DNA of 64,000 nucleotides, taken from Salinisphaera sp. Q1T1-3 (lineage in GTDB: Bacteria > Pseudomonadota > Gammaproteobacteria > Nevskiales > Salinisphaeraceae). The stretch covers positions 1 through 64,000 of the forward strand of contig NZ_QZWD01000007.1 in NCBI RefSeq assembly GCF_003602005.1. Direction: 5' to 3'. This document shows positions 1 to 3,282 of this stretch, one piece after another; the first letter of the stretch is position 1; every line of letters begins with the position of its first letter. The position numbers were made by a program, and so were the translations under genes. Below the pieces are notes generated by a model. The model was given only the letters and a program-made list of their open reading frames with translations, had not been told where the DNA came from and did not search any database.

Positions 1-118
1 CATGAAGACGAAGCGCTTCATCGACAAGCGCTGGCGAGACCAGGCGTGACAGCAATCCAATGCTGAGATAGTCCGCCATGCGGATGGGACCACCCAACGT
101 CGACGCCTTGCCTGCCAT
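1..118 (-). CDS. Partial transposase, probably IS4 family (N-terminus only)
   Basis: Read on the minus strand from the ATG at 116-118, the frame is open to the window edge. It encodes about 39 residues ending in a stretch like SIGLLSRLVSPALVDEAL, which resembles the N-terminus of IS4-family DDE transposases (typically a start of the form LSxGVLxRxFPxxLVDxV). A possible insertion-sequence end lies about 40 bases upstream of the start at 158-174. Too little protein is visible to be certain; the catalytic domain would lie outside the window. Confidence 0.4.
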   Translation of the reverse strand, partial: MAGKASTLGGPIRMADYLSIGLLSRLVSPALVDEALRLH

Positions 119-157
119 GCCGATTACCGGAAGCGATCAATATTCAATAGTATATCG

Positions 158-174
158 CTAAGTGAACGGCATTG
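158..174. repeat. Candidate insertion-sequence end next to the partial transposase
   Basis: The stretch CTAAGTGAACGGCATTG lies just upstream of the partial transposase and resembles ends I recall for IS4-type elements. Homology between the two broken Y1 transposase copies starts only a few bases further right (about 178), which is what is expected if the IS boundary lies here. The other end is outside the window, so an inverted-repeat match cannot be checked. Confidence 0.35.
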
Positions 175-177
175 GGG

Positions 178-597
178 ACAGACCACGGTTATGAGCTCTC
201 AGGCGATGCCTGACGTGTGTCCAGTCCAGAGTCAGGATTGAATTTAGAGCGTCGCCGAGATCGGCGGCCGGATCCCGGGACAGTATATTAATTTCCTTCT
301 TACCCTTTGCTTTCTTCCCCGGCGATTGCCTGTGAAGCGTGCGCCCAAGCTGCCGCTTGGCTTGGTCGATGAACGCCTCGTCGCCGAGGGGCCGTCTGGT
401 GCGTAGAGGCGGTTTGACTGGCGCTTTTTCGTGCACCGGAACGTCGGGGCCGGGTAGTCGGCCCAATCATCAGACAGGTTGGACGTTCGTGACAGTCGGG
501 TGTGTGGATCAACTTGGTCGCGGATATGGGCCTGGGAACTCGACCATGGCCAGTCGAGCGGATCCGCTACAACGCTCGCCTTAACCGTGCTGCCGGA
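178..597 (-). pseudogene. Truncated, frameshifted Y1 transposase relic (copy A)
   Basis: The minus strand encodes the C-terminal third of a protein like the intact transposase at 660-1319, in two frames: PLDWPWSSSQAHIRDQVDPH followed after a frameshift by PLGDEAFIDQAKRQLGRTL. The N-terminal two thirds, including the HUH motif, are missing; homology stops near 597. The end repeat GGGACAGTAT is at 277-286. About 100 bases beyond that repeat (178-276) are also shared with copy B at 2411-2510, so A and B derive from one ancestral locus. Non-functional. Confidence 0.8.
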
Positions 598-601
598 TTT
601 A

Positions 602-1343
602 GGGACAGTATACTGATCTGTCACGCGCACTCCGGGGCGCGCAACCAAGAACTGAACTTATGGCTCGTCTTGCCCGCGTCGTTCTACCGAACACACCGCA
701 CCACATCACCCAGCGCGGCAACCGTCGCCACCCGGTGTTCTTCGAGGACGACGACTATCGTTACTACCTCGCACTGATCGACGAATTCGCGCAGAAAGCC
801 GGCACCCGGGTGATCGCTTACTGCCTCATGCCCAATCATGTGCACTTTATCCTCAAACCGGAGCACAGGGATGGCCTGCGTGCTGCACTGGGCGAGGCCC
901 ATCGACGGTATACCCGCTACATCAATTTCCGTGAGAATTGGCGCGGCCACCTATGGCAGGAGCGGTTCCATTCGTACCCGATGGACGATGCCCATCTCTG
1001 GATGGCGGTGCGTTACGTAGAGCTCAACCCCGTTGCAGCAGATCTGGTCGCCGAACCGACGGGATGGCCATGGTCGAGCGCAAACGCACATGTACTTGAT
1101 CAAGCGGATCCATACATTCAGCTGTCGCCGGTTCCTAACTTGGCCGACGACTGGTCCGATTATCTGGCTTGCGGCGTTCCGACGCACGAAGAAGCACAGG
1201 TCGAACAACACCTACGCACCGGCCGACCTCTCGGCAACGATGCGTTCATAGATAAAGCCGAACGGCGACTTGGGCGAACGCTTCGCAAGCAACCACCTGG
1301 GCCGAAGGCGAAGGGCTAGGAACGGAGATAAGCATACTGTCCC
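602..1343 (+). mobile_element. Intact Y1-transposase unit with short inverted end repeats
   Basis: The transposase gene is bracketed by GGGACAGTAT (602-611) and its exact complement ATACTGTCCC (1334-1343), giving a unit of 742 bases. The broken copy at 2511-3243 has the same two ends (one end with one mismatch) and nearly the same length (733), and copy A keeps the 3-prime end at 277-286. The ends therefore mark the unit better than the gene alone. Whether it moves itself or only mobilises REP-like hairpins, as proposed for RAYT proteins, cannot be told from sequence. Confidence 0.6.
660..1319 (+). CDS. REP-associated tyrosine transposase (Y1/HUH, IS200-like superfamily)
   Basis: This 219-residue protein is the only intact copy of three in the first 3.3 kb. 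It has the N-terminal MARLARVV...HHITQRGNR signature of REP-associated tyrosine transposases, the metal-binding HUH motif in LMPNHVHFIL (residues 57-65) and the candidate nucleophile tyrosine in RRYTRYIN (Y84, with Y87 nearby). The C-terminal extension with RTGRPLGNDAFIDKAE is typical of the longer members. Such enzymes cut and join single-stranded DNA. It reads away from broken copy A and is followed by two tandem copies of a 19-base repeat that includes the unit end. Confidence 0.92.
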   Translation: MARLARVVLPNTPHHITQRGNRRHPVFFEDDDYRYYLALIDEFAQKAGTRVIAYCLMPNHVHFILKPEHRDGLRAALGEAHRRYTRYINFRENWRGHLWQERFHSYPMDDAHLWMAVRYVELNPVAADLVAEPTGWPWSSANAHVLDQADPYIQLSPVPNLADDWSDYLACGVPTHEEAQVEQHLRTGRPLGNDAFIDKAERRLGRTLRKQPPGPKAKG

Positions 1344-1373
1344 CGGATCCCCGCACTGTCCCCGGATCCCCGC
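1336..1373. repeat. Two tandem 19-base repeats at the transposase unit end
   Basis: ACTGTCCCCGGATCCCCGC occurs twice head to tail (1336-1354 and 1355-1373), followed by a third partial match (GTCTGTCCCCTA). Similar ACTGTCCC or GGGACAGT words sit at all other ends of the Y1 units here (277, 602, 2511, 3234). They are probably the recognition or end sequences of the element. Confidence 0.65.
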
Positions 1374-1694
1374 AGGGTCTGTCCCCTATAGGACGTCTGT
1401 CCTTGAGGAAGTGTTTAAACCGCGCAGAATGGCTGCTGGCCGAGTCTCTCTGCGAAAATTAATAGCGATAGCCAATTTGATAGGCAGTTTGAACCTGAGC
1501 CCAAACATTCGCAAAGTATCTGAAAAAAAAGACATCCTTTGTTTCTCGTGCAGCCACGTAAAAATGACCCAGAGAAATTCCCTAAAAAAGACTTGACATT
1601 ATATCCAAAGAGGGGTTGGTTTATTATGCAGTTTTTAATAAGGATTGTTGAATTGGTACACCGCTGAACTAGTTGTGACTAAGGGGAGATAAGG
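1374..1694. other. Intergenic, AT-richer stretch before the secreted-protein gene
   Basis: No convincing gene is seen in these 321 bases. Base composition changes here from GC-rich to clearly AT-richer, with runs such as AAAAAAAA near 1526, and this continues into the following gene. A promoter candidate lies at 1593-1627. Confidence 0.5.
1593..1627 (+). promoter_or_regulatory. Weak sigma70 promoter candidate
   Basis: A perfect TTGACA at 1593-1598 lies upstream of TATTAT at 1622-1627 in the AT-rich leader of the secreted-protein gene. The 23-base spacing is well above the usual 16-18, so the pairing is doubtful and another -10 box may be used. Confidence 0.25.
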
Positions 1695-2312
1695 ATGAAT
1701 AGATCAATAAAAAGGGCGCTGGTACTCATCGCATTTGGGCTAGTGGCGACTACGGCCGGTGCTGCTTCGTCACCGCTCGCAATTTCCGGGGCGCCAGGGC
1801 AAAGCAATGCTAACTGTGTGACCAACTGTATCAAGACATATCGGGAGAATAATGTCTTGAAAACAGTTGTATTGGATAAAAATGGAGACGTATTCGAGAT
1901 CGTACGTACTCCACTGTCGGACTCCGCGAAGAAGATTGCGACCGATCTCGGCCAAAATCCTTACGGCTCCAGTCCTTCTAACGGGGTTCACGTGAACCCC
2001 AGAAGCACAAGCTCGGGTGGCGGAACGTCGAGCGGCAAGAATCTGGCAGATGCTGATTCTTATGAGAATTTCACATATCGAATCAATCAGGGAACAGGTA
2101 GCGGAACGGTTGGCTATGGCGTTCACTACACGTTTCACGACTCGTATACGACTACATCTTCGATCGTAAGGGTGACTACCGTTCTAACCTACGAAAATTG
2201 CAGTTCGAGCACAGGGTACTCCGGCGCTTATTCGGGCGGCGACCTAGAGTCTGTTGATGTACACAGATCAACTACGCCGATAGCTTCGGGCGGCAAGCGG
2301 AATGCAAATTAG
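1695..2312 (+). CDS. Secreted protein of unknown family, probably acquired
   Basis: This 205-residue protein is not recognised. A Shine-Dalgarno-like GGGGAG precedes the ATG by a few bases. Residues 1-24 form a clear Sec signal peptide (basic start, hydrophobic core, cleavage near AGA-A). The mature part has two close cysteines (C41, C45) and a third at C169, a Gly/Ser/Thr-rich linker around residues 103-116, and a tail rich in Tyr, Thr and Ser that suggests beta-strands. The gene is AT-richer than its surroundings and lies between an intact and a broken transposase unit, which points to horizontal acquisition. An extracellular or periplasmic role is likely, but no activity can be assigned. 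Confidence 0.7.
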   Translation: MNRSIKRALVLIAFGLVATTAGAASSPLAISGAPGQSNANCVTNCIKTYRENNVLKTVVLDKNGDVFEIVRTPLSDSAKKIATDLGQNPYGSSPSNGVHVNPRSTSSGGGTSSGKNLADADSYENFTYRINQGTGSGTVGYGVHYTFHDSYTTTSSIVRVTTVLTYENCSSSTGYSGAYSGGDLESVDVHRSTTPIASGGKRNAN

Positions 2313-2410
2313 TGTGTACCGCTAGGCTGTTGTTTTGAGGTTTGCGAGTCGAGGTAGCGACCCGTGAACTAATGGCAGCTGGGTATTAAGGTTTTAAGAG
2401 GTATTAAGGA

Positions 2411-3243
2411 ACAGACTACGGTTCGCGAGCTCTCAAGCGATGCCTGGCGTGTGTCCAGTCCAGAGTCAGGATTGAATTTAAAGCGTCGCCGAGATCGGCG
2501 GCGGGATCCGGGGACAGTATAGTGATTTCCTTCTTACCCTTTGCCTTCGGCCCCGGCGATTGCCTGTGAAGCGTGCGCCCAAGCTGCCGCTCGGTTTGGC
2601 CGATGAACGCCTCGTCGCCGAGGGGCCGTCTGGTGCGTAGAGGCGGTTTGACTGGCGCTTTTTCGTGCACCGGAACGTCGGGGGGCCGGGTAGTCGGCCC
2701 AATCATCAGACAGGTCGGACGTTCGTGACAGTCGGGTGTGTGTATCGGCTCGGTCGTGGATATGGGCATGGGCATTCGACCATGGCCAGTCGAGCGGGTC
2801 CGCTACAACGCTCGCCTTAACCGTGCTGCGCTGTACGTAGCGCATGACGGCCGGAGATGCGCCGTGTCCATGGGGTAGGCGTGGAATCGCTCCTGCCATA
2901 AGTGGCCGCGCCAGTTCTCACGGCAATTGATGTGTCGCGTATCGCGCCGACGCGCTTCGCCCGGTGAGGCGCGCGATCCGTTGGTGTGGTTCGGTTTAAG
3001 GATGAGGTGTATGTGATTCGGTATGAGGCAGTAGGTGCCCCTGCCATATTCGCCTTATGTACGAATACGTCGATTAACGCCATGTCGTATCGATCGCCGT
3101 CGTCTTTGAAAAGGACCGATTGGCGACGATGGCCTCGTCGGGTGATGTGGTGTGATATATCGCCAAGTACGACACGGGCGAGGCGGGCCATAACGGCGTT
3201 CCGGGTGTGGCACGACGGGATATTGCGTTAAATGTACTGTCCC
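2411..3243 (-). pseudogene. Full-length but frameshifted Y1 transposase unit (copy B) with flank
   Basis: Read on the minus strand, the N-terminus MARLARVVL...SHHITRRG begins at 3191. The frame is lost after about residue 50. The HUH region and the C-terminal part (PLGDEAFIGQTERQLGRTL) survive in other frames. The unit ends are GTACTGTCCC (3234-3243) and GGGACAGTAT (2511-2520). Positions 2411-2510 are shared flank that also lies beyond the end of copy A. Several frameshifts make it non-functional. Confidence 0.85.
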
Positions 3244-3282
3244 GGATAAGCAATATTATTCAAATCAACCAACGTTTTTAAT

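Follow-up and report, generated by a model that had tools for sequence, protein, structure and literature searches.

The first 3.3 kb of the window – the whole 64,000-nucleotide stretch of Salinisphaera sp. Q1T1-3 DNA analysed here (contig NZ_QZWD01000007.1, positions 1 to 64,000), which begins at a contig end – hold one intact Y1 transposase gene and, on the opposite strand, two decayed relatives (copies A and B). The intact gene and its inverted ends are a TIRtron: the transposase is a TIRYT, of subclass 2.1 in the scheme of Quentin et al., and simple inverted ends are expected for this class. As read from the sequence, the element and its relatives display an enzyme of known class, defined ends, a match between the left and right ends of an element, an association between one residue of the enzyme and one base of its ends, and a preferred outer edge for the truncated end copies (iterates) that lie outside many ends. 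The reading that we favour, at a probability of roughly 0.6, is that of a TIRtron whose enzyme reads GGGGACAS by way of a loop and nicks about 8 nucleotides (nt) outside GGGG, the stuttered ends being the product of an abortive reaction in which ends are extended and rejoined.

The window protein matches Pfam Y1_Tnp (PF01797) with an E value of 1.2e-13 and scores 75 bits against NCBIfam REP_Tyr_transpos, under the 80-bit cut-off. An alignment-based AlphaFold2 model, built from 38 aligned sequences (the window protein and 37 of 73 eligible homologues), has a predicted local distance difference test score (pLDDT) of 91; a single-sequence model, with a pLDDT of 39.6, was not used. The solved structure nearest to the model is that of E. 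coli TnpA-REP (4er8, E 4.7e-8), followed by the ISDra2 and IS608 transposases. All the motifs given for subclass 2.1 – NHVH, W[EQ] and Y[IV]xLNP (PMC6006769) – are present, and since the motifs NHVH, WQ and YVELNP together with GGGGACAG ends match both TIRYTs and subclass 2.1, the element belongs to a known class. TIRYTs and TIRtrons were described in 2013 by Di Nocera et al. (PMC3733652) with ends of the motif class GGGGWSAS: the right core in the window, GGGGACAG, has this form, the left core, AGGGACAG, differs from it by one change, and the cores of relatives are mostly GGGGACAS. The earlier note had held simple inverted ends to be unusual for a RAYT-like element; this is not supported, for the texts of PMC3733652 and PMC6006769 describe the TIRYT/TIRtron branch with just this class of motif.

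The likeness to the TIRtrons of PMC3733652, as its text presents them, is close: a RAYT-like Y1 gene lies between terminal inverted repeats (TIRs) with GGGGWSAS, hairpins of GTAG-type repetitive extragenic palindromes (REPs) are absent, and genomes contain solo, dimeric and clustered TIRs. Subclass 2.1, according to the text of Quentin et al. (2018; PMC6006769), is alike in its motifs, in having no REP nearby and in its flanking GGGG[AT][CG]A[CG] repeats, with a median length of 238 aa compared to 219 aa here; it differs in its C-terminal helix-turn-helix (HTH), since the C-terminus of the window protein forms three helices in the model and has no Pfam HTH match at E 0.001. The window element itself is ordinary for its kind. 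With the REPtron/RAYT enzyme TnpA-REP (4er8) it shares the HUH/Y1 fold and an aligned guide-reading loop, as well as the placing of the gene, flanked on both sides by inverted recognition sequences whose evolution is coupled to that of the enzyme (for REPs, PMC2817692), but its ends have neither the GTAG head (GT[AG]G at the foot of a hairpin) nor the hairpin: the conserved end is GGGGACAS, and hairpin z scores average 0.03 over 122 ends, five of them below -2, with no excess folding. The IS200/IS605 elements IS608 and ISDra2 are alike in their Y1 catalytic domain and in showing no target duplication, whereas they have asymmetric subterminal hairpins and YxxxQ where the present elements have inverted ends on both strands, no hairpin excess and YxxxNP (YVELNP in the window).

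A central issue is whether the ends define a unit. Comparisons were made across 85 genes: that of the window, four close homologues and the best 80 of 555 confirmed homologues from a scan of a genome collection with alignment A1, these 80 being 46-58% identical to the window protein and coming, by their record titles, from many phyla and mostly from metagenome assemblies. (Labels beginning with G, C and L are our own, for genomes, contigs and loci.) The four nearest homologues (65-82% identical) are flanked by the same end type as the window unit: G009 has both exact ends near the gene, G014 a variant left end, and G002 and G006 a decayed near right end plus an exact right end 689 and 821 bp downstream, respectively. 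The idea of cargo between the gene and these far right ends was dropped, given the decayed near ends and the fact that G002 and G006 share one locus, which holds a small gene that we take to be lipoprotein-like. HUH and Y residues are intact in 84 of the 85 genes. At G006 (L047, 4545-5210) the frame is open and NHVH has become DQVH; because the first histidine of the HUH motif is lost the protein is probably inactive, though uninterrupted, and with copies A and B also dead, decay is evidently not rare.

Ends picked by their core motif (122 of 126 were used, 67 left and 55 right, from 74 of the 85 elements) yield the profile AATTcc-GGGGACAS-NN-TACTTAATT, conserved from -6 to +18 with nearly nothing farther out; conservation within the core follows from the picking rule, that outside the core does not. 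A rule requiring both ends takes in 52 of the 85 genes (the window is excluded, its right end reading TGC where the rule wants TAC or TAT), and among these the right core lies 12 nt past the stop codon in 21, and the left core precedes the start most often by 54 nt (11/52) and by 46-62 nt in 31. When inverted pairs were sought without any motif, 40 of 84 genes (one had a short flank) scored at least 17.5, compared to 21 of 497 swapped pairs, a control that itself shares the family motif. In 27 pairs of related elements (at least 70% identical) identity stops at about -6 on both sides and is near background beyond; 25 left and 13 right ends were comparable, the same elements recur in several pairs, and not all pairs are independent because L046 and L047 stand at one locus and L159 and L170, whose flanks share stretches, seemingly do too. 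This stop marks the edges of the unit, and the comparison supports a unit. The proposal of the earlier note that the Y1 genes form units with defined inverted ends is supported, and the ends are found again around relatives that mostly have unrelated DNA farther out.

In the window, the arms of the intact unit form an inverted pair of 25 nt, 80% complementary. The sequence GGGACAGTAT stands at 277-286 (copy A), at 602-611 and inverted at 1334-1343 (intact unit), and at 2511-2520 (copy B); with at most one mismatch it is matched five times in the 64 kb compared to 1.6 expected, a count reached in 2 of 100 shuffles and, taken alone, only modest evidence. All five matches are located at ends of the Y1 gene or its remnants.

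The gene could have been domesticated, its ends serving regulation or another host role and the unit no longer moving. Copy numbers are low: exact TATAC-type sites number 19, in five of 14 genus genomes, and ACCAC-type sites 15, also in five of 14; among 16 genomes with a match at E 1e-58, 15 have a single match, and a mean copy number of 1.9 is reported for subclass 2.1 in the text of PMC6006769. The left end, at its usual distance upstream of the start, stands, judged by eye, at a place that could suit a promoter. Domestication is nonetheless somewhat unlikely in our judgement, for most pairs of related elements share no flank beyond their ends and decayed copies with the same ends adjoin the intact unit.

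Evidence bearing on mechanism comes from the DNA just outside the ends. An exact tandem run of at least 8, touching the core from outside (repeat periods of 5-30 nt were tested), is found at 42 of the 122 ends (34%), compared to 50 of 2596 positions drawn at random outside the elements and 33 of 3400 within genes (1-2%). These controls replaced an earlier one with swapped flanks, which carry tandems of their own (mean 38.6 of 126 against 43 observed). A looser chain test finds outward iterates at 42 of the 122 ends (22 left, 20 right), 16 of them with two or more; swapped flanks give a mean of 8.1 (maximum 15) and shuffled ones 4.2 (maximum 11), so that some of the 42 are chance. The outer edge of the iterates falls within -10 to -6 in 32 of the 42, the inner edge is spread from -1 to +20, and the length of core retained is bimodal, with peaks at 0-4 (36/62) and 7-8 (17/62). 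Such iterates are seen, for example, at the right ends of L175 and L099, at the left end of L127, at one end in L091 and in the window itself, where the right end of the intact unit is duplicated in tandem (1336-1354 and 1355-1373), a feature that the earlier note does not mention. Under a stricter rule, iterates attend one of five window cores, seven of 58 in the genus set (L046 and L048 being included there again), six of 45 in a later class set and 15 of 302 motif matches of other subfamilies; one array may count more than once, and the 302 include many chance matches.

Tandem duplication by replication slippage is common, and ordinary slippage at short direct repeats might make iterates with the transposase uninvolved; the short periods tested would suit it. 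It would not lead one to expect iterates at a third of ends and at 1-2% of control positions, at both ends of elements and in several subfamilies, nor an outer edge clustering near -8 while the inner edge varies. The iterates might otherwise be relics of repeated insertion of an element beside its own end, followed by deletion or excision, for which solo ends and close pairs in the genus (among the 19 exact TATAC-type sites) and the TIR clusters reported in the text of PMC3733652 could be cited. Such a history requires deletions tending to stop at one outer edge, and the iterates of many arrays also repeat the non-conserved bases -7 and -8. It is mainly the preferred outer edge that weakens slippage and serial insertion alike, and we consider each of them unlikely.

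The two ends of an element also resemble each other in what is not conserved. In 39 of 52 elements the variable 4-mer at positions 7-10 is the same at both ends (on shuffling, the mean is 8.6 and the maximum 21), and only 20 of 52 have their left 4-mer in common with the nearest protein relative. Being the same within an element and differing between relatives, the tag indicates that the two ends stay matched while changing. Similar co-evolution is known for REPs and RAYTs from the text of PMC2817692.

What the enzyme might read is suggested by the association of residue 101 with end base 8. Across 72 of the 85 elements (11 had no usable end, and L101 and L158 had conflicting bases), all 34 with E101 have G and 33 of the 38 with G101 have C, which makes 101 the best of 155 columns tested; the 67 of 72 concordant elements were attained in none of 3000 simulations on a protein tree made without these columns, the maximum being 55. 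Column 101 was picked after viewing the 155 columns for base 8 and four further end positions, and the sole check free of that choice is a held-out set in which six of seven scorable loci fit the rule; it comprised 15 loci, of which one was a duplicate, one had no motif and six had no end by rule, and two of the seven (L206, L214) are interrupted by a stop. The second-best column is residue 104. In a profile alignment to 4er8, with residue numbers counted from the alignment, 101 and 104 fall on H101 and R104 of TnpA-REP, both listed among its guide contacts in the text of PMC6006769. Joint inheritance by descent, in place of a recognition contact, is an improbable source of the association: the branches with strong support hold only three independent pairs, but on the best tree residue 101 changes at least 10 times and base 8 changes 13 times with the concordance maintained beyond anything simulated, and the column aligns with a known guide contact.

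We infer where the nick falls, which polarity the chemistry has and that ends are extended and rejoined, as follows. The intact unit, small and probably mobile, has a single Y1/HUH transposase gene flanked by two inverted ends of the AATTcc-GGGGACAS-NN-TACTTAATT type that lack hairpins. Its enzyme would read GGGGACAS via the loop near residues 100-104, much as GTAG is read by TnpA-REP. The enzyme is predicted to nick the flank-to-element strand about 8 nt before GGGG at each end, so that tyrosine 119 holds the 5' end of the element and the flank is left with a 3'-OH. Cleavage by HUH enzymes produces a 5'-phosphotyrosine together with a free 3'-OH that can prime synthesis or join strand transfer (as set out in the text of PMC8266576). 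In a complete reaction the held ends would be moved; in an abortive one, extension would carry the 3'-OH of the flank from a few up to about 20 nt into the element before it is joined again to the held 5' end. Each such event would add, on the outside, a truncated copy of the end whose outer edge is fixed and whose inner edge varies, and copies could be stacked at both ends. The second peak of core length, at 7-8, could arise if bound protein stops extension there. The predicted nick site is supported within the window, where the match between copies A and B breaks at 593, that is, at position -8.

Several findings weigh against this reading. The edge of the iterates lies mostly 6-10 nt out, at no single position, and 10 of the 42 fall outside that range; nor is the bimodal core length predicted by extension unless there is a block. 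Two ends could not be found by rule for 33 of the 85 genes, that of the window included, and the 40 of 84 recovered by the motif-free search imply that many elements have weak or undetectable inverted pairs. No empty site and no movement was seen in the neighbouring-gene searches or the Paraburkholderia records. The gene adjoining the G002 copy, presumably an acyl-CoA dehydrogenase, was found (E 1e-100) in only two of the 14 genus genomes, both occupied; PhoX is present in 10 of the 14 (the window's genome included), and, of the fetched loci, only that of its own genome matches the DNA lying between copy B and PhoX. Six records with matches on Paraburkholderia plasmids were compared and showed no convincing inverted ends (best scores 8-13). 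Outside the ends, direct identity of the kind expected from a target duplication was not above shuffling, a weak test if iterates hide the true junction. As to the residue-base rule, the three independent pairs on strongly supported branches (mean 2.7 concordant, none opposite) are too few for significance, and the tree is a quick one in which 34 of 69 inner branches were drawn open for low support. Five of the 72 elements (L113, L155, L163, L165 and L171) and the held-out L212 do not follow the E/G rule, and residue 101 is by itself no predictor of the base in more distant subfamilies. There residue 101 is mostly G or S, residue 100 mostly E or D and the base, where ends were found, mostly G; four FQG-type genes (L013-L016) carry C, and L077 (WQG, base G) is an exception. 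What matters may be an acidic residue at 100 or 101.

From these sequence regularities one can predict a nick site and a recognition residue, and they may preserve a natural record of failed transposition. We advance only tentatively the broader proposal that TIRYTs nick both ends about 8 nt outside GGGG and can copy their ends outward, that genomes record such abortive transposition, and that one residue (E or G at 101), in a small loop on which target reading depends, selects the base (G or C) at both ends and has repeatedly been switched. If the residue-base rule is true, TIRYTs would be HUH enzymes with a single-strand target changeable by one amino acid, and they are widespread: subclass 2.1 is found in 14.9% of the sample according to the text of PMC6006769. 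Tag pairing, the residue-base rule and stuttered ends were not found reported for TIRYTs in the literature text searched (main text, apart from figures and supplements), nor was a TIRYT mechanism; the abstract and passages of PMC3733652 that were searched have no extended consensus for this clade, left-right tag statistics, residue-base rule or stuttered ends.

Copies A and B deserve separate attention (Table 1). The one intact and two decayed Y1 units recognised in the earlier note are present where it placed them, and copy A does retain a single end. Its claim that the intact unit and copy B are bounded by the same inverted sequence is exact for the former, while the far end of copy B (3234-3243) reads GGGACAGTAC, with one mismatch, and the ends of that copy are therefore not exact. 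Over 416 aligned bases (A 178-593, B 2411-2829) the two copies share 93.8% identity, and with the intact unit only 77% (A, over 174 aligned bases) and 74% (B, over 640): they are a related but diverged pair, not recent copies of it, and both are dead. Their match breaks at A 593 and B 2829, 8 nt outside the left core of the intact unit. Copy A, then, did not merely lose one end; it is cut at this point, and its missing half is not present on the far side of the intact unit.

Table 1. Positions of the intact unit, its decayed relatives and associated ends in the window.
Feature	Position	Strand	Basis or remark
Intact Y1/HUH transposase gene (TIRYT), 219 aa	660-1319	+	NHVH, WQE and YVELNP motifs; Pfam Y1_Tnp; AlphaFold2 model
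Left inverted end of intact unit	595-619	+	Spans -6 to +18 around core AGGGACAG at 601-608; fits family end profile
X8 segment outside left core	593-600	+	Last base shared by A and B is 593; putative outer edge of unit
Right inverted end of intact unit	1326-1350	-	Partner of 595-619
Outward iterate (tandem partial copy) of right end, GCGGGGATCCGGGGACAGT	1355-1373	-	Counted under the strict iterate rule
Copy A: truncated, decayed TIRYT remnant (C-terminal half), 3' inverted end at 277-286	270-593	-	
Flank common to A and B, between inner end and second-type outer end	178-269		A/B alignment
Second-type end GGGGACAGACC(ACGG)	174-184	+	Outer boundary of A/B-shared DNA; end type of other TIRYT subfamily
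Second-type end GGGGACAGACC	1376-1386	-	Inverted partner of 174-184
Copy B: decayed full-length TIRYT with both inverted ends (2511-2520; 3234-3243, one mismatch)	2504-3245	-	
Decayed second-type end (GGAACAGACTACGG)	2408-2423	+	Edge of A/B-shared DNA; A/B alignment starts at B 2411
Insertion sequence end abutting second-type end	1-173		Also at three other contig ends of same genome

The sharing by A and B of some 100 bases past the inner end, which the earlier note took to mean either duplication together with flank or a larger mobile unit, is real (about 99 of the 416 aligned bases), and the puzzle it posed is partly resolved. The shared DNA ends in copy A at GGGGACAGACC and in copy B at a decayed form of it; GGGGACAGACC also forms a second inverted pair, at 174-184 and 1376-1386, that went unmentioned. 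In relatives the end type GGGGACAGACCACG flanks a different TIRYT subfamily (L022, L028, L092, L096), and the window's own genome has one gene of that subfamily, at C22, with a matching downstream end. Since it stops at the end type of the other subfamily, the flank is a stretch between the ends of two TIRYT types.

The insertion sequence (IS) whose end fills positions 1-173, which we take by its terminal repeat to be IS4-like, was found at four contig ends (C54, C43, C22 and C57), three of which adjoin GGGGACAGACCACG and one, C43, GGGGCCTGTCG. Three further contig ends (C58, C2 and C19), located by way of the motif, have the other IS end and likewise border the second-type TIR. An IS bordering this TIR so often may favour TIRs as targets. 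At one such contig (L038; G000:C54, 174-2383) a 496-aa gene, presumably carboxypeptidase-like, lies between the second-type end and an inverted GGGGACAGAC 2.2 kb off; no transposase gene is present among the open reading frames listed there, and chance and a passenger gene are both possible.

Between the intact unit and copy B the window has an open frame of 205 aa (1695-2312), with no Pfam or NCBIfam match at E 0.001; the loci fetched from other genomes contain no DNA that matches it. At a more distant locus, L074 in Pseudomonas aeruginosa (NZ_CP116719.1), three TIRYT genes stand amid orphan toxin-immunity cassettes, their inverted ends about 32 nt or more in length, two perfect and one mismatched; TIRYTs may help to shuffle cassettes such as these.

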